From Vampirovibrio chlorellavorus (GTDB lineage: Bacteria > Cyanobacteriota > Vampirovibrionia > Vampirovibrionales > Vampirovibrionaceae): 64,000 nucleotides of DNA. Location of the stretch: positions 186,001-250,000 of the forward strand of contig CAIPMU010000014.1 in assembly GCA_903866275.1 (NCBI GenBank). The letters run 5' to 3'. Under the pieces are notes generated by a model, which searched no databases, was not told where the DNA came from, and saw only the letters and a program-made list of their open reading frames with translations. Positions 6,404-35,416 of the stretch are shown here, piece by piece. A program made the position numbers and the translations under genes. The stretch's first letter is position 1; each line of letters starts with the position of its first letter.

Positions 6404-6572
6404 AACCACGCCTTTCTGTACCATGACTGGAGCAGTGTACCTGATGTATACCACTTGTTTGGGGAAATTAACTAATGGTCTGCCATTGCGCTCATTATAA
6501 TATGGGCCCCTCAAAGCACGCCAGTTCATCTATGGCAAAGGCTTCAGGGGTCAAAAAAGCCAGCGCTAAATT

Positions 6573-6974
6573 CTAGACGGACTCTTCAATGGATTTCAGA
6601 TACGCCTTGGGTTCCATCAGTTTTTTGAGCTCTTCTGGCTTGGAAACCAGAATCTCCAGCATCCAGCCACCATTGTAAGGGTCATCATTGACCATTTCAG
6701 GCTCTTCGCTGAGCTGGGTGTTCACGGCGATGACTTCGCCCGCTACGGGGAGATAAAGGTCAGATTGTGCTTTCACTGATTCGATGGAGCCGAAAGACTC
6801 ACCCTGATCAAAGCTTTGGCCCACGTCTGGCAGCTCGACAAACACAATATCCCCCAGCTGGGAAGCGGCAAACTCGGTGATGCCGATTCTTACACGGTCA
6901 TCATCCATCATACGGACGTATTCATGGGTTTCTGCCAGTAAAACGTCATCTGGTATTGTGAATTCTGTTGCCAT
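6573..6974 (-). CDS. gcvH: Glycine cleavage system H protein
   Basis: Lipoyl carrier that shuttles the aminomethyl intermediate between GcvP, GcvT and the lipoamide dehydrogenase (not in this window). 133 aa, normal length. The lipoylation site is K68 in GSIESVKAQSDLY; the family usually has Ala or Val where this protein has Gln next to the lysine motif, a mild variation. It lies 20 bases downstream of gcvT in the same orientation. No lipoate ligase or synthase gene is nearby. Confidence 0.95.
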   Translation of the reverse strand: MATEFTIPDDVLLAETHEYVRMMDDDRVRIGITEFAASQLGDIVFVELPDVGQSFDQGESFGSIESVKAQSDLYLPVAGEVIAVNTQLSEEPEMVNDDPYNGGWMLEILVSKPEELKKLMEPKAYLKSIEESV

Positions 6975-6994
6975 TCAGCTTTTCTCCTTGCCTC

Positions 6995-8167
6995 TTAGTG
7001 TTGATAAAAAGGTCTTTCTACAATTTCTGCATCCACATCCGTACCCCGAACCCGGATCTGAATGGTATCGCCCGGTCCTAGCACCGAGCCAGAGCGAATA
7101 TAACCCATCCCGATTGGCACATTGAACAACGGCGAAATTGAGCCGCTGGTCACCTCGCCCACGGGCAGGCCATTTTTGAGAATGATGTCGTGTTGTCGGG
7201 CAATGGTCCGCTTGTTCAGCGTAAAGCAGAAAAATTCCTTGTCCAGTCCTTGCTCACGCTGCTGTATCAAGGCTGCCTTCCCGATAAATTGACCTGGCTT
7301 TTCCAGTTTGACCGACCAACCGAGTCCCGCTTCCAACGGCGTATCTTGCTCACTGATGTCACGCCCATGCAGGGGGTAAGCCGCTTCAAGCCGCAAGGTG
7401 TCTCTGGCCCCTAGTCCAATGGGTTGTAGCGCCAGTGGTCGTCCCAGGTCTAACAGCAAATCCCAGAGTGCCGGTGCATTTTCGTTGGGCACAATAATTT
7501 CCACACCATCTTCTCCGGTATAGCCGGTGCGAGAGATTAAAACGGGTGTGCCCTGAATTTGCGCTTCGCTAATCCAGAAGCGCTTGGGCAGATCGTCCGT
7601 ATCAAAGCCGGTGCGGGCCAGTATATGCGCGAAATCCGGGCCTTGTAGGGCAAACAGGCCATACTGACTATGCCAGCTGACTTTTAAACTGGAAAACTTC
7701 AGGGCCTCGGCGTGCTGTTCAATCCAGGCGATGTCTTTTTCCGTATTGGCCGCGTTACAGATGATCAGAAACTCCTGAAAGTCTTTCAGGTCATGGAGTT
7801 CTGGCAGTTGATAAACAATGATGTCATCGATAATGCCACCGGCTTCGGTTAAAAACTGGGTGTAAACGGCTTTGCCGGGTTGCAGTCTGGTTAAATTTTG
7901 CGGCACCAGATACTCCAGAAAGGCACGGGTGGCTTCCAAATCGCCACTGTGAACCGTGATCAGCCCCATGTGGGAAATATCGAACAGGCCTGCCACTTCG
8001 CGCACGGCATGGTGTTCTTCCATGACCTTGCCATATTGCAGGGGCATTTGCCAGCCCGCAAAATCCACCATTTTGGCCCCGCGGGCGACATGGTTATCAT
8101 ACAAGGCTGTTTTTTTGGTTACATCCTGATGTTCAGGGGGTAAATGCTCAGAGGGCGTTTTAATCAT
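6995..8167 (-). CDS. gcvT: Glycine cleavage system T protein (aminomethyltransferase)
   Basis: Transfers the methylene group from lipoyl-GcvH to tetrahydrofolate and releases ammonia. 390 aa. The folate-binding N-terminal domain shows VDFAGWQMPLQYG and LFDISHMG, then the TGYTGEDGVEI block and GLGARDTLRLEA, all hallmarks of GcvT. It is the first gene of the minus-strand gcv cluster. The first about 15 residues before the conserved core are a short extension. I looked upstream (8168-8320) for a glycine riboswitch and saw none, so regulation of the cluster by glycine, if it exists, is by another route. Confidence 0.95.
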   Translation of the reverse strand: MIKTPSEHLPPEHQDVTKKTALYDNHVARGAKMVDFAGWQMPLQYGKVMEEHHAVREVAGLFDISHMGLITVHSGDLEATRAFLEYLVPQNLTRLQPGKAVYTQFLTEAGGIIDDIIVYQLPELHDLKDFQEFLIICNAANTEKDIAWIEQHAEALKFSSLKVSWHSQYGLFALQGPDFAHILARTGFDTDDLPKRFWISEAQIQGTPVLISRTGYTGEDGVEIIVPNENAPALWDLLLDLGRPLALQPIGLGARDTLRLEAAYPLHGRDISEQDTPLEAGLGWSVKLEKPGQFIGKAALIQQREQGLDKEFFCFTLNKRTIARQHDIILKNGLPVGEVTSGSISPLFNVPIGMGYIRSGSVLGPGDTIQIRVRGTDVDAEIVERPFYQH

Positions 8168-8320
8168 ACTGAGATTTTTGACCAGGAACTGCGCCTTGTC
8201 AATTTGAAAATACGCAGCGGCTTGGCTTGAACGTCCCCATGAACGGAAGACGCTGGCCTTTATGACAAGCCATACGATCGTGTGAAAGCTTACTCTGAGA
8301 ATGCGAATGGGTGTAGCAGG

Positions 8321-8473
8321 TTAATGCGACAGCACCTGCAGGATGCTATAGGCCAGCACCAGCAGGCTCGTTTGCCAGAGCAGATCCAGAGCGGGTCTGG
8401 TTTGGGTTGCCGCCAGAGCGATCACTTTGGGTTCTGATGAATGTGGGTGGTGTCCGTTCCGATTAGGTATCAT
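8321..8473 (-). CDS. Small putative membrane-anchored protein
   Basis: A 50-aa frame starting MIPNRNGHH with GGAG 8 bases before the ATG. The N-terminal half is His/Pro-rich and polar. The C-terminal half, LLWQTSLLVLAYSILQVL, is a plausible single transmembrane helix, giving a tail-anchored layout. No family is recognised. It lies between gcvT and tlyA on the same strand and could be expressed with either. The evidence is the ribosome binding site and the hydrophobic pattern only, so it may be spurious. Confidence 0.4.
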   Translation of the reverse strand: MIPNRNGHHPHSSEPKVIALAATQTRPALDLLWQTSLLVLAYSILQVLSH

Positions 8474-8569
8474 CAAAAAAACTCCATGAGGCGGGTTGGT
8501 GCATGCTGGGAAGTTCATGATTAATGTCGGCAGGGGGGAGGAAAACTTTAGGGTGTTTGACCCAAAAAT

Positions 8570-9415
8570 TTATTTTTCGTAATGTTCCGCATAACTGTGT
8601 TGAATGAGTGCGGTAATGCGCTCGTTTAATCCGGTCAGGGCAGGCTGACTTTGGTTATCAGTGCCCCGAGTGTAGTGCAGGAGAAACTCAATATTCCCTT
8701 TGGGGCCCGTAATGGGCGAAAAGTTCAGACCTGCCAGTTGCCAGTCGGGCATTAAAGTGGCCAAATCCAATAAAACCCCAGTGACAATCGTTTGGTGACT
8801 CTCTGCGCCACGCACCACACCTTTAAACCCGGCGGGATCCAGATAATCCCGATGTTCAAACTGGGGTTTCAACAGGGCGATGATCTCGGCATCCGCTTGC
8901 AAGAGGCTGGCCAGGGGCGGTAATACTTTTTTGAGGGAAATAAACGAAGTATCCACCACACCCAGTGAGGGAGACTGACTCAGTTGGTCAGGTTGCAAGT
9001 CTCGGATGTTGGTTTTCTCCAGCACCTGAACCCGCTCATCCTGCCTCAGTTTCCAGTCCAGCTGGCCGTAACCGACATCCACCGAAATAACCTGCGCCGC
9101 GCCGTTTTGCAGGAGGCAATCCGTAAATCCTCCGGTGGACGCCCCGACATCCATACAGATTCGACCTGCGGGGTTGACGGCAAAGGTGGCCAGGGCTTTT
9201 TCCAGCTTGAGGCCACCCCGGCTGACATAGGGTTGCAAGCCTACCACATCCAGTTCGGTTTCGCTGATGGCAACGGGTGTGCCGGGCTTGGTGACTACCG
9301 TGCCAGCCACTTTTACCTTGCCATCCATAATCAATGCTTGCGCCTGGGCCCTGCTCTGGCACAGGCCGCGGTCTACCAGTAGTTTATCCAATCGTTCTTT
9401 GGGAGTGGGTGCCAT
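8570..9415 (-). CDS. tlyA: TlyA-family rRNA (cytidine-2'-O)-methyltransferase
   Basis: S4 RNA-binding domain (about residues 4-65, ERLDKLLVDRGLCQSRAQA) fused to an FtsJ-like SAM methyltransferase domain (MDVGASTGGFTDCLLQ, VDVGYGQLDWKLR, DTSFISLKKVLP, LLKPQFE). This is the classic TlyA/hemolysin A architecture; characterised members methylate 16S and 23S rRNA. The protein has 281 aa from the ATG at 9415. The frame is open to 9466, and GGAGG lies 17 bases before the chosen ATG, which is far, so the start is uncertain. The divergent neighbour is pth. Confidence 0.9.
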   Translation of the reverse strand: MAPTPKERLDKLLVDRGLCQSRAQAQALIMDGKVKVAGTVVTKPGTPVAISETELDVVGLQPYVSRGGLKLEKALATFAVNPAGRICMDVGASTGGFTDCLLQNGAAQVISVDVGYGQLDWKLRQDERVQVLEKTNIRDLQPDQLSQSPSLGVVDTSFISLKKVLPPLASLLQADAEIIALLKPQFEHRDYLDPAGFKGVVRGAESHQTIVTGVLLDLATLMPDWQLAGLNFSPITGPKGNIEFLLHYTRGTDNQSQPALTGLNERITALIQHSYAEHYEK

Positions 9416-24761: not shown

Positions 24762-27314
24762 CTACAATGCAAACAGAATGGTTTTGACACCATACGGTTC
24801 AATCTCCAATGAGATGTCAGGGATTGCCGCTGTTGCCGGTTCAGTGCCCCAGAGGATTTTTTGAGGCGTTTCGAGGAAGTTGATTTCTTGCACCGACTGG
24901 CAGACAAAGTTGGGCGTGCACCGTGTGTTGGCTGGTTGGTCCGTGGGGTTTAGCAGGCGCAGGATCAGTCCTTGCCCTGGCACCCAGTAGCAGGCAGAGC
25001 GCACGATCGTTGATGGTTGAAGCTGCACCAGCGCAATCATTGCCGGGTGGTTTGGCGGGTTGGGTGTTTCTGTGCGCTGCCCGGATTGTGCCCAGAGGTT
25101 GCCATAAAACCGGGCGGCCTCAACGTATAGGGCTTGTGGTGTTTTGGGGGTGGGCCGCCACGCATAGTGGCACTGCAATTCCCGATTCATGCATTGTCCT
25201 TCCGGGGTCTCAAAGGGCGGGCCTGCCTGAGCACCCCTCACGCCGGTATCTCCCTTTGACAGGGCGCCAAAGGCACGCAGCAGGGTGATGGCCATTGTCT
25301 CGCAATGCACTTCGTATTCGGCCAGCCCCTGAGTGATCCAGCTCTGCCCGTTGGCGCTGAAGAAGCGTTGCACGGGGCCCGTGTTGGTTTTGAGTTCCTT
25401 CATCCGATCCACGGGCATCTGATCGACCTCCCGGTAGTCGGGATCATAGTGCCGGGTGACCAATCCCAAGTGGTTTTCTGCGACCACGGTGGTAATCCGC
25501 TCGCTGGTGGCAAAGCCCACTTGCAGCTTGTAGTTCGGGGTCTGGTTGGTAAACCGGGTTTCAAAACGCAGCAAGGGGCTGTCCGCGTGAAGCCGAACCT
25601 CGGTGGTCAGCGTCATATTCAGTGCAGTGATGCTATGAGTGAGGCTGAGGCTGCCCACAAGCGGGCCATTGTGCTGGATTTTGTACCCCTGAAACGTGAT
25701 GCCGTAAGGCTCACTGCCTGGCACCGGCGCGCTGTTGTAAGAATCCCCCTGATCCGGTTGGGCCATGAACTTTAACAGGTGCGGGTAAGTGTTTCCCGTT
25801 TTTAAATCCGTTACGGTCAGGGTGCCGTTGGCCTCCACTTGTACAGAGAGCAGGCCGTTTAGGAGGCGATTTGGGCTGATCTGCACGGGTTGAATTTCAG
25901 CAGGAATGGCAACCCTTGCGTTGGGCAGCACTTGATAACCGGGTCCGGGAACCTTATCGGCCCAAAGCCAACCCGTTCGGCGGGTTTTGGTCAGGTGCGA
26001 CAGGGGAATGCGGTGGCCGTCATGCAGGTATTCATCCTGTAGCACGGTTTGCTCGGAGTCGATTTGCAGGAGATGGCTTGGTTGTTCGGGAGTTTCGGTA
26101 TCCTCCCAGGCGGCGATGACCCCGGTGTATGGGCTTTCTCCCGTGTTGAAGATGAGCCAGTCTTGCGGGCTGGCCAATTGCGCAGCGAGGGTGGCTTGAG
26201 TCCGGTTGAGCAGGGCCTCTGTCAGTTGGGCCACTTGATCAAAGCGCACCTCGTTTTCCCGGTGCACGGCATCCACGCTACAGCCGCAGATGCTGTCGTG
26301 GGGGTGGTTTAGAATCAGCGTCTTCCAGGCTAGATCCAGCTCATGGGTGGGGTAGCGCAAAGGCTGGGGCAAGTTCAGGCATTGAGCCAGGGCCAGCAAG
26401 GGTTCCAGCTTGTGGGTCAACAGGTGCTCCAGTTGGCGATTTAGCTGCTTCAGGTACATTCGGGCAGAATAAACACCCGGCAGTAAAAAGCTGCCGCTGT
26501 TGTCGATCAATTCACCATGGAAAGTTTCCAGGGGTTGTTCAGGGAGTGTGTTGAGGTATTGTTCTGGCGTGGTTTCCTGGAGCTGGGGATACTCGACTTT
26601 CAGTAGGGCGTGGCCTTCTGCGCTCACCGGCGCCAGATGATCCCCACCGATGGGTAGGAGGGCTGGCATATCTGGTGGACAGGCGGCTTGCAGCTTTTGC
26701 GTCAGGGCTCGCAAGGCTTTGGTTTTTTGAGCGGTGGTGGCCGTCCAGTCGTGGAACATCATCTGGAAGTAGCCATCGGTGAGGTGTAAGGCTTTTACCC
26801 TGTCGCCACTTGGGCTTTGCCACTGGAAAACAGATTGTTTGGGGTTGACCCCGCGCCACACCACCGCTGAATTCAGCCCGCAATGGTGCAACAGGGTGGG
26901 AATATCCGCAGAATGACCAAATGTATCCGGCAGGTAGCCTGTAAACTGATGGCAACCCCAGGCTTTAGCGTCCCGGATGCCTCGCATCAGGTTGCGAATC
27001 AGGCTTTCCCCGCTCACCAGAAATTCATCCGGCATCACAAACCAGGGACCAATGCGTAAGCGCCCGGCCTCAATCAGGGCTTTGAGTCGAGGGCGGTTTT
27101 CGGGGCGCAGCTCCAGATAGTCTTCCAGCACCACGGTTTGGCCGTCCAGCATAAAGCAGGGCAGAATGTGCTGCTCCAGTCGCTCTAAAATCTCATCCAC
27201 CACGGTGGCCAGACGCACCTGATAGGCACGAAAGGGCAGATACCACTCGCGGTCCCAGTGGGTGTGGTAATACGCGGCAATGGGTGTTGCTGGGTTACTG
27301 GTTTCTGATTGCAT
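24762..27314 (-). CDS. Glycoside hydrolase family 38 alpha-mannosidase
   Basis: An 850-aa retaining alpha-mannosidase. The GH38 N-terminal catalytic domain is clear: YYHTHWDREWYLPF (zinc ligands H19 and D21), PWFVMPDEFLVSGESLIRN, and GYLPDTFGHSADIPTLL with the probable catalytic nucleophile D130. A HPHDSICGCSVD block near residue 340 supplies another zinc-site His. The middle three-helix bundle and the beta-rich C-terminal domains of GH38 complete the length. There is no signal peptide, so it probably acts in the cytoplasm on imported mannosides. First gene of the minus-strand unit; a strong terminator separates it from the flagellar genes upstream. Confidence 0.92.
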   Translation of the reverse strand: MQSETSNPATPIAAYYHTHWDREWYLPFRAYQVRLATVVDEILERLEQHILPCFMLDGQTVVLEDYLELRPENRPRLKALIEAGRLRIGPWFVMPDEFLVSGESLIRNLMRGIRDAKAWGCHQFTGYLPDTFGHSADIPTLLHHCGLNSAVVWRGVNPKQSVFQWQSPSGDRVKALHLTDGYFQMMFHDWTATTAQKTKALRALTQKLQAACPPDMPALLPIGGDHLAPVSAEGHALLKVEYPQLQETTPEQYLNTLPEQPLETFHGELIDNSGSFLLPGVYSARMYLKQLNRQLEHLLTHKLEPLLALAQCLNLPQPLRYPTHELDLAWKTLILNHPHDSICGCSVDAVHRENEVRFDQVAQLTEALLNRTQATLAAQLASPQDWLIFNTGESPYTGVIAAWEDTETPEQPSHLLQIDSEQTVLQDEYLHDGHRIPLSHLTKTRRTGWLWADKVPGPGYQVLPNARVAIPAEIQPVQISPNRLLNGLLSVQVEANGTLTVTDLKTGNTYPHLLKFMAQPDQGDSYNSAPVPGSEPYGITFQGYKIQHNGPLVGSLSLTHSITALNMTLTTEVRLHADSPLLRFETRFTNQTPNYKLQVGFATSERITTVVAENHLGLVTRHYDPDYREVDQMPVDRMKELKTNTGPVQRFFSANGQSWITQGLAEYEVHCETMAITLLRAFGALSKGDTGVRGAQAGPPFETPEGQCMNRELQCHYAWRPTPKTPQALYVEAARFYGNLWAQSGQRTETPNPPNHPAMIALVQLQPSTIVRSACYWVPGQGLILRLLNPTDQPANTRCTPNFVCQSVQEINFLETPQKILWGTEPATAAIPDISLEIEPYGVKTILFAL

Positions 27315-29999: not shown

Positions 30000-31478
30000 T
30001 CAGTATGATTCAACCTGACAGGGGGCTAATACGGCATCTTTCATTCCGTGAATCAGCTTTTTATCAGAAGGGCAGGCCGTGGCCAGGACCCCGGCCAGCG
30101 TGACCATCCCGTTCTGGATGAGATAATACGGACACAAGCGAGTGCGCGCCTTGAAGGGGGTTACTTCACCCGTGTTTAAATTCAGGCGTTCCACGGTTTG
30201 GGTTCCTGCCGGGATAAATTCCTGCAGGATATAAGGGGTTTTGCCAAAGCTGGCCAAGGCTGCATCAATGCGTTCACTCCAGCTTTCCGCGGAATGATCA
30301 TGCCCGATGGTCACGCCGCGGCTGCCCCAGCCCAACTCTGAAAAGCCGGAGGGCTTGAGCACAAGCTCGCGCTCTTTTTGGCTGAGGGTTTTCAGCTGCT
30401 GAAAATCCTGAATCGGTTTGCCGCCGGGGGATAAATTGGCTATGACGGCTTGGGGGGGTAAGGGGGCAGGGTCCACAATCCAGCCTGCGGGCACCCACTG
30501 TTTGAGCTGGGCAAAAGATGTCGCACCCAGCTCCTTTTGCCAGAAGTCAGCCAGAATGGGATGGTGTAGCAGGGCCAGAGAGAGCTTCTCCTCCACCTGA
30601 GGCTTAAAAGGCGGGGTACATTTGACCAGCCCTTTTTTGACGGCGTACTGGATGAGTTCGATTTTGGGAACGTTGGGCAGGTCGAACAGTTCAAAAAAGC
30701 GGTAAATGAGATCAATGGGCCGCTCTTCGCCGCTTGTCGGGTCGGTGAAAACCAGGCGGTCGCGCACAAGGTCCACGTTTTTGGGATGGAGGATCACCAT
30801 ATTCGGGTATGGGGCCACCAAATCAGAGCCCTGGCGGATGGTATCCACCAGCCAGCCCATTTCAGCCAGGTAATCGCCCGCTTCATCCGATAGAACAATA
30901 GCAATCGTGGGGTTTTCCACTTCGGGAACAAAGGCTTTCAGCATGTCCAGGAAGGCCCCCGGTAGTCCGTCGGTGGGTGCTTCGATCACCGGGAAACCAC
31001 TCTGGCGGTAGAGTCGGTTCAAGGCAGCCGTAAATCCTAATCCGCCCGGTACCGCATCAATCTCGCACAGCGTCCAGCCGTCCTCACGCAGGAGTAAATC
31101 CGGGCGGAGCACTAACGGAAGATGTGATTTCATGCGTTTCATGGCGGCAAACTGCAGGAGCGTATCCGGCTTGCCCTGATCGTATAGTTCCGCAACCCAG
31201 GTGGGCACGGGGAGATTTGGATTTTTGCTGGCCCGGTACAGGGTATCTATGGCTTGTACAAACCGGTTCAGCATCTCGCCCAAGTCCAGTAATGCCTGAT
31301 ATTGATGTTTAGACAGCCTGAAGGGTTCCGGGGACAGTTGCCAGCCCAGTCCGGTGGGACCAACTTCTGACGGGCCTGAGGCCATGGGGGTAGTTTGTCC
31401 GTAAAGAGGCTGCGCGGGAAGATAGGACAGATCCAGTCGGGGCGGACAGTTTGGCTGTGTTGGGTTTTGCGTGGACAT
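30000..31478 (-). CDS. ATP-grasp-like protein of unknown substrate
   Basis: A 492-aa protein, ATG supported by AAGGAAG 5 bases upstream. The central part has RPDLLLREDGWTLCEIDAVPGGLG and DLIYRFFELFDLPN; the C-terminal part has ATP-grasp-like features: ELVLKPSGFSELGWGSRGVTIG, WSERIDAAL, YILQEFIPAG and then a domain with RLNLNTGEVTPFKARTRLCPYYL. This layout recalls circularly permuted or glutathionylspermidine-synthase-like ATP-grasp enzymes, which join an acid to an amine. I cannot name the substrates. No obvious partner genes surround it; it is upstream of fliJ on the same strand, 230 bases away, so probably a separate transcript. Confidence 0.5.
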   Translation of the reverse strand: MSTQNPTQPNCPPRLDLSYLPAQPLYGQTTPMASGPSEVGPTGLGWQLSPEPFRLSKHQYQALLDLGEMLNRFVQAIDTLYRASKNPNLPVPTWVAELYDQGKPDTLLQFAAMKRMKSHLPLVLRPDLLLREDGWTLCEIDAVPGGLGFTAALNRLYRQSGFPVIEAPTDGLPGAFLDMLKAFVPEVENPTIAIVLSDEAGDYLAEMGWLVDTIRQGSDLVAPYPNMVILHPKNVDLVRDRLVFTDPTSGEERPIDLIYRFFELFDLPNVPKIELIQYAVKKGLVKCTPPFKPQVEEKLSLALLHHPILADFWQKELGATSFAQLKQWVPAGWIVDPAPLPPQAVIANLSPGGKPIQDFQQLKTLSQKERELVLKPSGFSELGWGSRGVTIGHDHSAESWSERIDAALASFGKTPYILQEFIPAGTQTVERLNLNTGEVTPFKARTRLCPYYLIQNGMVTLAGVLATACPSDKKLIHGMKDAVLAPCQVESY

Positions 31479-31762: not shown

Positions 31763-34700
31763 ATGTTTTTTAAGAAGAACAAGCCAGCCCCGCTCCCTGA
31801 GGCAGAATCTCAGGCTTCTGCCAGGTCATCTGTAGTTCCCGAGGGGCAAAGCGTCTTTGCTCCCCGTTTGAACGTGCCTCCGGCGAAGATTGACTTTGGT
31901 TTTAACCAGGTATATGCCGGGGACGACAGTCCGCCTGCTGCATCCGCGCCAACACCTTCCTGGGAGCCGGAAGCCTGGAGAGCGCTGCCGGACCAGTCTG
32001 ACTCCGAAATGTCTATGCCTTCCGTCATTCCCGTCGTGGATTCTGCCGTTGCCATTGAAGTATCAACATCTCACATTGAATACGCTGAGCCGCTGCCAGC
32101 GGGATCTGCGAACGCCTGGGACCCTTTGGCGGTTTTACCCTCGGAGACTTCTTCGTTGGATATGAGTCCAGAAGAGGTCTGGTCCATGATGGAACCTTCC
32201 CCGGCTATTGGTACGGCCTCTGAGATAGAGGAGATGGCATCGATGCCCTCGACTTTCGAATTGAGCGCTTCGCCGTCTTTCTCGGAAGCGTCTCAGGATG
32301 CACTGTCATCTGAATCTGATGAAGTACCGGCCTCAGCCCCGATGGGTTCTGCGTCACAGGAAGAGGCTTGGGCCTCAGCCTTTGGGGAAGATATTCCGGA
32401 AACCGCCATACCGCTGATGACTCCAACAACTGAAATGGTTGCCCCACCGGTTGATTTGGCGATGGACTGGCAGTCACCGGCGGAGGGTCCCATTGACTGG
32501 GGTGCCGAAGCGAATAATTTCGTCGTGCCGTATCATGAGGATGTGGCGGATAAGCCAGCCCAGCCTGATGAACCATTGCCCGAAGTGGCTTCCGTGCCTC
32601 TGCCGGAGTCTGATGTTCCAGCTGCTGTTGTGGCTCCGCAAGAAGCGAGTGTCTCATCGCCGCCCAGCCTGATGTCTTCTGAGCCGGTGTCTGAATTTTT
32701 GGCTCAGGCGTCCACAGACGCCATGTGGGATGCCCCTGTTTCTGGTGATTTTGATACTGCGGTTTGGGAAGTTCCCAGTCTGGACGCTGTGGACTCGGAT
32801 CCATTGATGGGAATGGATGTTACAGCCTTTGTGATTAAACCCATCGTGCCAGAGGAAAGCCCGGTGAGCAGTGCTTCGGTGGGTGGTGACACAGCGATTG
32901 ACGACAGCACGGTTGTTTCGACTGAACGGATAGAGACGGAGGCATTTGCGCTCGATGAATCGTCTCTGGATGCCTGGCCAGCGTCGTCTGAGATGCCTGC
33001 TGAGCCACTGGCAGTGCAAGAACTGGGTGTGGCCCCCATTGTCGTTGAAGAGCCTGTGCCCATTGTGTCTGGTACGCCTGTGACCCTGAATCCTATTGTG
33101 CCTTTGCCGCCGGATTTATGGGGTGAGGAGGGGGTCGGTATAGAGGGATCTTTCGGCGTTGCTGAACCAGTGTCATCGATGGATAGTACCTTTGGACAAG
33201 CCCTGTGGGAGGAAACTCCGGCTGCTCAGATCGAGCTGGAACAGGCCCCGGCATTGGAATGGATGTCTGGTGAATCACTGAGCGATGAGACATCGACGTT
33301 TGATCCGATTAGCGCTTCTCAGGAATTATCAGCGGGCTGGGCCGCACTGGAAACTCAGTCCGAATCGGGTGCGCTGGGTTTTGATCTGGTCGATGATTTT
33401 TCCGGGCAATCCACGGAGCTTCAGTGGGCAGCGGAAACTCCGCCTGTTCAGGCGTCCCAGCAAGCGTTGGCTCAGGAATGGGCGAATATGCCTTTGGATG
33501 ACGATCCGGTTTATATGTACCCGGTTTCCACCACGCCCCAGACCGAAGCGGCATTGTGGAATAATCTCAACGCCCCCGATAGTGTTGTCCCCGGTGATCA
33601 GGTGCCCTTGGCATCGGGTGCCTATATGGACACCATTAATGAGCAGTTGTACCCCGCGGATCCCTTTTCGGGCCTGAATGATGAGTTTTCTGCCGGGGAA
33701 CAGGCCTTTGCCGAGGCCGCACAATACTTGTTCCCGGAGACGATGACCGCGCCGCTGGAGTGGTCGGAGGAGTCCTATGGCGCGCAGGAAGTCCCTACCC
33801 TGAATGACGATGATTATCCGGTTCTGGAGCTGGGACCCAGTTACGTGCCTCAGGCTCAAGGCTCTCGAACCGTTGTTCCGCAGAAATCGACACCGGGCTT
33901 GTCCGATTACGCCGGGGCAGTATTTTACGCCGAGCCTGTTGCGCCCCATGCTGAAGCGTTTGTGGGCGATCGGCAAACGCTGGAGGCTTTGCCCGGCGCT
34001 TCGTCTTCGATGCCTTTTGTCGCCTTGCAGGCATCCGAAGCGCCACCGGAGACTGCTGCGAGCAGTAGAGCGGCCTGGGGGCCCTCCGCTGTGGCGGATA
34101 ATTATTCCCAGTCTCAGGCTGCATTTCTTGATATGGGGCCATCGATGCCTGTCTATGAGCCCCTGTATTCACTGCCAGAGCCGGATGCAGTTATACCTGA
34201 CGGCGCTTTGGCGCAGCCTTCGGTTGTCGCTGCCGAAGAGCAGGACTTTTATGCCACGGCGTTTACGCTGAATGACACTGGTGAGTTGGTGCCGTTACAT
34301 GAAGAGGAGCTGTTGATTGAACTGCCACCGCTCCCTCAGCCAAAAGTAGAACCGGATACTGTCGCCTTCGAGCCCGAATTGACTGCGGATGCGGTTGCCC
34401 ATTGGGGGGAGGATCTTCAGCAGGCGTTCACTGAACTGGCTGATCCGGCGGGTGCTGTGCATTATGCTCAGCCAGCACAGCCTCAGGCGGCGTCTATGGA
34501 TGCATCAGCCTGGTCTGGTTCCGTTATCAGCTTAGAGCCATCTGAGGGCTGGGTAGAGCCAGTCGTGACTCCTCCTTTCCCGGCATCGTTTGCCTCTACG
34601 GAGGATCAGGTGTCCATCCGGCCGACAGCACCTGCGCCCTCTCTGGACTGGCAGGATTTAATTGCGCCCTATGTGGCCAATCCAGTCAATGCACCCAGCT

Positions 34701-35416
34701 CGGCACCCAGGACGAGCGTGAAGCCCACCAGTGTTCCGAACGCCGTTCAAACCGCCGCTGAGCGGGTGTCTGTGCCACCCACACCGGAAGGAGAGCTTCC
34801 GCCGGAGAAGCGGATCATTCATCCCAAGCCGTTAAACCGTAAGATGCCTGATAAAATGCCTGATTTAAAGCAACAGGTCTCAGTCTCTCCATCGGTAGTG
34901 CCTGTGGTGTCGGTGGCCAACTCCGCCTTTGCACCCTCCATCCCTGCTCTTTCCGAAAATCAGCCGCAGGTTCAGGGGATGGCCTTCCCTGCTGAACCTG
35001 CAACCGAAGCAGTGGAGGTCGCTCCCATTCAGAATAGCTGGTATGAGTCGAACGAATCGGTGGATTCAGGGGTGGCAACGCCCGTGGTGTTGCCGGCGTT
35101 GTCGCAAGCTCACCAAAAGCTGGCCGTGGGTAATCTGGAAGTGAGGGGCCTCTGCCAGTTATCCCCTGATAAGCGGCTGATGGTGGTGCACAGTGACGGC
35201 GTTTATGCGCTGATGGCACAAAGTGGTCCCGGACAATCCGATGTGACGGTGTTGAAGGTCTTTGAGCAGAATCCGCTGGCCTATCAAAATACCTTTACTG
35301 CCGTAGAAGAGGTCAAAGCATCCGGGCAGGGCATGTTTGTTACTCAGGTCGGAACTTGGCGCGCCATTATTTCCACCTTTCAGGATAAAATTACCTTGCA
35401 CACCGAATTGGGGTAG
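31763..35416 (+). CDS. Giant acidic low-complexity protein with a conserved-looking C-terminal domain
   Basis: A 1217-aa protein. It starts MFFKKNKPAPLPEAES, without signal peptide or membrane helix. Roughly residues 20-1000 are disordered-looking, very rich in Ala, Ser, Pro, Glu and Asp, with almost no Lys. Short hydrophobic islands with Trp recur at least 20 times, for example AWDPLAVLP, VWSMMEPSP, ALWEETPAA, GWAALETQ and SLDWQDLIAPY. From about 1000-1065 it becomes basic and Pro-rich. The last about 95 residues (from LAVGNLEVRGLCQLSPDKRL) look like a folded alpha/beta domain. No known family. The next gene, 53 bases downstream, encodes an HTH protein. GGAG lies 5 bases before the ATG. A TATAAT at 31696-31701 may be the -10 box. 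Confidence 0.75.
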   Translation: MFFKKNKPAPLPEAESQASARSSVVPEGQSVFAPRLNVPPAKIDFGFNQVYAGDDSPPAASAPTPSWEPEAWRALPDQSDSEMSMPSVIPVVDSAVAIEVSTSHIEYAEPLPAGSANAWDPLAVLPSETSSLDMSPEEVWSMMEPSPAIGTASEIEEMASMPSTFELSASPSFSEASQDALSSESDEVPASAPMGSASQEEAWASAFGEDIPETAIPLMTPTTEMVAPPVDLAMDWQSPAEGPIDWGAEANNFVVPYHEDVADKPAQPDEPLPEVASVPLPESDVPAAVVAPQEASVSSPPSLMSSEPVSEFLAQASTDAMWDAPVSGDFDTAVWEVPSLDAVDSDPLMGMDVTAFVIKPIVPEESPVSSASVGGDTAIDDSTVVSTERIETEAFALDESSLDAWPASSEMPAEPLAVQELGVAPIVVEEPVPIVSGTPVTLNPIVPLPPDLWGEEGVGIEGSFGVAEPVSSMDSTFGQALWEETPAAQIELEQAPALEWMSGESLSDETSTFDPISASQELSAGWAALETQSESGALGFDLVDDFSGQSTELQWAAETPPVQASQQALAQEWANMPLDDDPVYMYPVSTTPQTEAALWNNLNAPDSVVPGDQVPLASGAYMDTINEQLYPADPFSGLNDEFSAGEQAFAEAAQYLFPETMTAPLEWSEESYGAQEVPTLNDDDYPVLELGPSYVPQAQGSRTVVPQKSTPGLSDYAGAVFYAEPVAPHAEAFVGDRQTLEALPGASSSMPFVALQASEAPPETAASSRAAWGPSAVADNYSQSQAAFLDMGPSMPVYEPLYSLPEPDAVIPDGALAQPSVVAAEEQDFYATAFTLNDTGELVPLHEEELLIELPPLPQPKVEPDTVAFEPELTADAVAHWGEDLQQAFTELADPAGAVHYAQPAQPQAASMDASAWSGSVISLEPSEGWVEPVVTPPFPASFASTEDQVSIRPTAPAPSLDWQDLIAPYVANPVNAPSSAPRTSVKPTSVPNAVQTAAERVSVPPTPEGELPPEKRIIHPKPLNRKMPDKMPDLKQQVSVSPSVVPVVSVANSAFAPSIPALSENQPQVQGMAFPAEPATEAVEVAPIQNSWYESNESVDSGVATPVVLPALSQAHQKLAVGNLEVRGLCQLSPDKRLMVVHSDGVYALMAQSGPGQSDVTVLKVFEQNPLAYQNTFTAVEEVKASGQGMFVTQVGTWRAIISTFQDKITLHTELG

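Follow-up and report, generated by a model that had tools for sequence, protein, structure and literature searches.

A 64,000-nucleotide stretch of the Vampirovibrio chlorellavorus genome (assembly GCA_903866275.1, contig CAIPMU010000014.1, positions 186,001 to 250,000; hereafter the window) carries a gene for a giant acidic protein of the order Vampirovibrionales, whose last ~98 residues (aa 1120-1217) form a small C-terminal domain (CTD) related to the flagellar factor FliO, as far as profile comparison can tell. An earlier note on this DNA had outlined an acidic low-complexity region, a basic Pro-rich stretch and a small folded C-terminal domain, and this outline is borne out by the sequence: a basic N-terminus is followed by the acidic low-complexity region, the basic Pro-rich segment and the FliO-like CTD. 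The ATG start is preceded by a GGAG-like ribosome site, and an in-frame stop lies just 7 codons upstream (open frame 1224), so that no transmembrane (TM) helix was missed through the choice of start. Between aa 41 and 1117, the chain consists of 16% Asp plus Glu, 1.9% Lys plus Arg, 12.5% Pro, 13.8% Ala and 11.4% Ser, with 24 Trp, and hydropathy analysis detected no TM segment in the protein, in agreement with the Lys-poor region devoid of membrane segments that had been described. No tandem DNA repeat was found in the gene, and a promoter and terminator scan gave no excess over shuffled sequences. As for the disorder that had been proposed, the charge-hydropathy rule places most orthologues clearly on the disordered side, whereas the low-complexity region of the window protein lies close to the dividing line (H 0.481, boundary 0.464).

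The CTD had been described as having no recognised relative; it is, however, very probably FliO-related and tandem. Judged by sequence comparison, it is made of two successive FliO-like beta-cores (~95 aa in all), for which neither Pfam nor NCBIfam holds a curated family model. An alignment of 32 CTDs was split in two and each half was compared by hhalign with 13 genuine Vampirovibrionia FliOs, using 150 column shuffles; both halves scored above their shuffled maximum (Table 1). The two halves also resemble each other (19.3, versus a shuffled maximum of 13.0), and the profile of the whole CTD matched the 13 FliOs with a probability of 92. A beta-rich control, the periplasmic domain of the relatives described below, did not match (score 15.5 with FliO, 9.2 with the CTD). 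The Pfam FliO model was matched by 4 of 11 CTDs (best E 4.7e-4); the window protein stays below its cut-off (13.2 versus 22 bits), and a membrane-anchored relative of family f10 (G190) lies narrowly above it (22.1 versus 22 bits). An AlphaFold2 (AF2) model of the CTD, run with 3 sequences, has four strands in the first half, with a predicted local distance difference test (pLDDT) score of 65-85, as many strands as are predicted for the cytoplasmic domain of Salmonella FliO (PMC2947984); the second half is unreliable. Foldseek comparison of this model with the PDB returned no match at E <= 0.001, and neither the CTD nor the periplasmic domain gave a significant match in profile searches of the PDB. 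A relation to a known flagellar protein was thus found for the CTD, as a remote one to FliO, and not for the protein as a whole.

The last 98 residues, used as a query, gave matches in 11 of 58 genomes, and a profile built from those 11 located the CTD in 14 of the 18 genomes of the order. Every match in the order is the C-terminus of a long acidic low-complexity open reading frame (ORF), of 568-2463 aa where complete, the longest being a single uninterrupted frame (L016:3354-10745; 2463 aa). The search that the earlier note had proposed therefore revealed a family: other Vampirovibrionia have the small CTD too, again behind a long disordered N-terminal part. With a profile of more distant C-termini, 152 of the 240 genomes of the class gave a match; almost all of them belong to f10, to the window's order or to f6, a family that we infer to be Gastranaerophilaceae-like. 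Across 339 genomes of the phylum, a combined profile identified members in these three groups only, all sampled photosynthetic cyanobacteria lacked the CTD, and plasmid and phage collections contained no match. The CTD protein is found as a single copy in nearly every f6 genome; the family is single-copy and, as far as sampled, restricted to the class Vampirovibrionia.

Table 1. Features of the giant gene and its neighbours (positions within the window).
Feature	Position	Strand	Evidence and remarks
Divergent protein, 492 aa, family unassigned	30000..31478	-	284 bases upstream; conserved neighbour across families f1 (the window's own) and f2 of the order
Giant protein gene	31763..35416	+	1217 aa; ORF plus orthologues in 13 other genomes of the order
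Conserved N-terminus MFFKKNK (hydrophobic and basic)	31763..31783	+	Alignment across the order; without TM; candidate membrane-contact motif, role putative
Island A, GQSVFAPRLNVPPAKIDFGFNQ	31844..31909	+	phmmer versus genus-mates E 5e-11 and 4e-8; in L017 (E 7e-4), weakly in L019
Short island around DMSPEEVWSMMEP	32150..32200	+	phmmer versus L012 E 6e-4
Island B, ...SGAYMDTINEQLYPADPF...EQAFAEAAQYLFPETMTAPLEW (aa 612-671)	33596..33775	+	phmmer E 1e-20 versus L012, 3e-19 versus L013; genus-level only
Island C, ...QDFYATAFTLNDTGELVP... (aa 802-846)	34166..34300	+	phmmer E 8e-11 versus L013, 2e-8 versus L012; genus-level only
Basic Pro-rich segment (aa 979-1038)	34697..34876	+	Sequence; alignment: largely absent from both genus-mates
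CTD, first FliO-like core (aa 1120-1171)	35120..35275	+	hhalign versus 13 FliOs: probability 96.4, score 45.5, shuffled maximum 14.6; four strands in AF2 model, moderate confidence
CTD, second FliO-like core (aa 1172-1217), with near-invariant VGxW motif	35276..35413	+	hhalign versus FliO: probability 94.5, score 36.9, shuffled maximum 16.0
Helix-turn-helix (HTH)/zinc-ribbon protein, 151 aa	35470..35925	+	Downstream, co-oriented, in 11 other loci; probable operon partner

Outside the order, the CTD belongs to bitopic membrane proteins. In the 20 f6 loci read, these are 255-904 aa long; a hydrophobic segment at the N-terminus and an internal TM helix are both present in most, two lack the former and one lacks both, and the CTD comes after a cytoplasmic linker of variable length and charge. 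Profile comparison matches the CTD of the window's order with the f6/f10-type CTD over its full length (probability 98, E 5e-14). The periplasmic part of the f6/f10 proteins is weakly AMIN-like, PF11741 being matched by 1 of 11 members (E 4e-4), while one full-length member of this type gave an E of 0.03, below the cut-off. G190 displays a bridge architecture, with a signal peptide, an AMIN-like part, a TM helix, 423 residues with 42% Asp plus Glu and then the CTD. No TM segment was detected by hydropathy in any Vampirovibrionales member; in this order, the signal peptide, periplasmic domain and TM helix are replaced by the basic MFFKK N-terminus, and the linker has grown to an acidic region of 0.4-2.3 kilo-residues.

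A gene for a solute-binding lipoprotein lies directly downstream of the CTD gene in 15 of the 20 f6 loci, plus six others, and this conserved pairing could indicate that the ancestral job was that of an envelope sensor or transport accessory, encoded in an operon with a sugar-binding-type lipoprotein, with the Vampirovibrionales protein as a soluble derivative. Such an origin is very unlikely to account for the giant protein, as the periplasmic domain is gone and the orthologous lipoprotein gene of the window's order lies elsewhere, beside ATP-binding cassette (ABC) permeases. No split-off AMIN-TM partner was found beside the solute-binding gene in this order. In f6/f10, the lipoprotein gene that follows the CTD gene (L057:8093-9301, L064:8416-9570, L066:8596-9681 and others) sometimes overlaps it.

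The FliO relation of both CTD halves also raises the question of type III export. The genome encodes two other FliO-type proteins and two FliP genes, so the giant protein is not simply the missing FliO; it could instead be a third FliO paralogue that stabilises the gate proteins, either of the flagellar gate or of the second FliO-FliP-FliQ-FliR gate of this genome, with the acidic chain as a spacer. FliP is present in nearly all genomes that have the family, and genes for FliJ, FliK and a hook-type protein are located upstream in the window; these flagellar genes are adjacent in some relatives and not in all, so that their proximity says little. In all loci read, the giant gene lies outside any fliPQR operon, and separate FliO-type proteins are present. 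Furthermore, families f5, f7 and f8 have FliP without a CTD protein and G123 has a CTD protein without a FliP or FliO match, which argues against an obligatory role at the export gate. An accessory role of this kind is, on balance, unlikely.

Several observations concern the export genes themselves. The two FliP-type gates of the genome consist of a ~220-aa FliP beside FliO (L056, G000:C10:8000-22000, about 6473-9077), followed by FliQ- and FliR-like ORFs as read by eye, and of a separate 277-aa FliP at G000:C7:15706; many f6 genomes have the ~216-aa FliP type only. An unusually large FliO of 645 aa (L055:8551-10488, minus strand; match 2.2e-8) has a hydrophobic segment at the N-terminus, an internal TM-like segment and, after the FliO match, a long low-complexity tail.

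Tryptophan motifs flanked by acidic and hydrophobic residues had been described as recurring at least 20 times in the giant protein; they do not turn out to be its defining feature. Of the 23 Trp found in aa 41-1010, the gaps are slightly more even than in shuffled sequences (coefficient of variation 0.71 versus 0.93, P = 0.08), acidic residues are modestly enriched at up to 3 positions from Trp (1.43 versus 1.00 per Trp, P = 0.018), and hydrophobic neighbours are not enriched. The Trp pattern is thus weakly supported, its spacing not clearly differing from that of shuffled sequence. Acidic flanking is also slightly enriched in L012 (P 0.009), where spacing is even (P 0.004); the spacing is not significant in L013. 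The total of 24 Trp in the window protein compares with 15 and 13 in two genus-mates, Trp-richness is limited to some members of f1 (0-0.5% elsewhere in the order), and only about two of the window's Trp fall in segments conserved between genus members. The Trp motif was consequently rejected as a family signature, being a weak, genus-level feature with no enrichment in most of the order. That these motifs serve mainly as activation-domain-like elements or condensate stickers, as first proposed, would be compatible with the acidic flanking and with the even spacing in L012; given that most of the order lacks Trp enrichment, that the spacing is non-significant in two proteins and that few Trp positions are conserved, we consider it highly improbable. 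Taken together, the aromatic residues of the window protein are not significantly evenly spaced (P 0.51), and results across the family are mixed; even spacing of Ile, Leu, Met and Val is significant in combination (P 2.5e-9), which may reflect local composition and is not used as evidence.

Conservation outside the CTD is concentrated at the N-terminus and in a few islands. MFFKK or a near variant (MFFKR, MFFNK, MFFWK, MFFFWK, MIFGK) begins most members of the order, the start of one being cut by a contig edge. Among three genus members, the conserved stretches are aa 1-50, 130-146, about 607-680 and about 802-850 (E down to 1e-20), and the distances between islands differ by hundreds of residues while the island sequences stay. 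The acidic region as a whole is not alignable across the order, and islands B and C were not found outside the genus.

The divergent 492-aa gene, the giant gene and the HTH gene form a block that is kept across f1 and f2, the first adjoining the giant gene in nine other loci and the last in eleven. The 492-aa protein is highly conserved in both families (44-73% identity), has no Pfam match above cut-off and no NCBIfam or PDB match, and gave an unusable AF2 model (mean pLDDT 40); its motifs, KPSGFS.WGS and CPYY among them, hint at an enzyme that may be ATP-grasp-like. A family 38 glycoside hydrolase (alpha-mannosidase type) is encoded further away, at 24762-27314 on the minus strand, beside the flagellar genes. 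Downstream, the HTH/zinc-ribbon gene begins 53 bases past the giant gene's stop, as had been stated, and in the 12 loci concerned, including the window, the two genes mostly overlap slightly or lie up to about 50 bases apart. Such tight pairing, together with the joint absence of both genes from G003, could mean that the giant protein is the partner or antagonist of its operon-mate, its acidic region mimicking DNA or sequestering the HTH/zinc-ribbon protein and thereby tuning its regulon. G003 lacks the 492-aa gene as well, through either co-loss or an assembly gap. Relatives of the HTH/zinc-ribbon protein were found in 183 of 194 class genomes, and f6 genomes often have 10 or more matches each, so that what is specific to the order is the pairing with the giant gene; homologues also exist without the giant protein or without adjacency, and the f6 CTD proteins are membrane-anchored and neighbour a solute-binding lipoprotein gene instead. 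A regulatory partnership is accordingly doubtful, and we regard it as rather improbable.

We favour, with a probability of roughly 0.4, a role for the giant protein as a cytoplasmic, membrane-proximal tether or hub. The extended scaffold of the earlier note is thereby kept as the best mechanism. The CTD would dock on an inner-membrane assembly, as the FliO cytoplasmic domain is thought to do, and the MFFKK N-terminus could provide a second membrane contact. Between them, the acidic, Lys-poor chain would act as a self-repelling spacer, in which the few conserved islands may recruit client proteins; the downstream HTH protein is probably co-expressed with the giant protein or its regulator. The cytoplasmic domain of Salmonella FliO functions without its TM helix when over-expressed and has been proposed to be a bridging domain (PMC2947984). 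In addition, a polar organiser would have clients in V. chlorellavorus, whose cells bear pili, an attachment pad and one polar flagellum (PMC4451040). Several points weigh against this role: the conserved islands are genus-level, and their clients would have to be lineage-specific; two members (L021, L060) have no clear MFFKK start; the basic Pro-rich segment is not conserved; the AF2 model of the CTD is confident for its first half only and has no significant PDB match; and the membrane contact by MFFKK, the docking partner and the clients are putative.

In a broader and speculative scenario, which we hold to be improbable as a whole, duplication of a FliO-type core in Vampirovibrionia, and its recruitment to a job away from the export gate, would have given rise to a new class of scaffold that organises the membrane or the pole. 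In the predatory order, this scaffold would have lost its membrane anchor and turned into a giant acidic tether for machinery such as the pili, the polar flagellum or the apparatus for attachment to prey. The ingredients, i.e., the FliO core, the acidic spacer and the AMIN-TM anchor, are each already known, and their combination carries no label in the libraries searched. The tandem FliO-like domain extends the repurposing of FliO to much of a class, with chains of up to 2.4 thousand residues, and the family offers a concrete handle on envelope organisation in Vampirovibrionia. Its architectural series, from TM-anchored to soluble and from short to giant linker, amounts to a natural experiment on how disordered scaffolds evolve.

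Among known systems, FliO (PF04347, TIGR03500), an assembly factor of the flagellar and type III secretion export gate, has the cytoplasmic beta core in common with the CTD. It is a core yet diversified flagellar factor, with homologues that carry AMIN or LysM domains or occur in non-flagellar settings; its TM anchor is shared by the f6-type relatives, and their AMIN-like periplasmic domain recalls the AMIN-FliO of Campylobacterota and others (PMC12403147). In the f6/f10 relatives, unlike in FliO, the TM helix is usually separated from the core by a long linker. FliO has one core, preceded by a TM helix, and belongs to a fliPQR context; the CTD has two in tandem, and in the window's order the protein has no TM or periplasmic part, carries the giant acidic region and is encoded between the 492-aa gene and the HTH gene. 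FtsY-type proteins, whose N-terminus targets the membrane, likewise start with a short hydrophobic and basic stretch followed by an acidic chain; FtsY carries a GTPase and the giant protein does not. FimV/HubP, a polar landmark protein with its periplasmic peptidoglycan-binding domain, TM helix, acidic cytoplasmic region and small C-terminal domain (PMC12918733), resembles the bridge form G190 in layout, which has a periplasmic wall-binding-type domain, a TM helix, a strongly acidic cytoplasmic region and a small C-terminal domain; this is analogy, not homology. The extensive acidic cytoplasmic region is also present in the giant protein, whereas the LysM-like domain and TM helix of FimV/HubP are absent from it, its relatives having a TM helix and a weakly AMIN-like domain, with no LysM seen. 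The C-terminal domain of FimV/HubP is of the tetratricopeptide repeat (TPR) type, while the CTD is beta and FliO-like, and no match to the FimV C-terminal TPR domain (TIGR03504) was found in the genome. PopZ, which organises the pole in Caulobacter, combines an acidic, Pro-rich disordered spacer with a small folded C-terminal domain (PMC9512792), as does the giant protein, again by analogy and not homology: its oligomerisation domain is helical and its spacer 78 aa long, whereas the giant family has a predicted beta domain and a spacer about 5-30 times longer. Both FimV/HubP (PMC12918733) and PopZ (PMC9512792) illustrate a polar hub or condensate in which an acidic chain joins a small folded domain to a contact with the membrane or a client.

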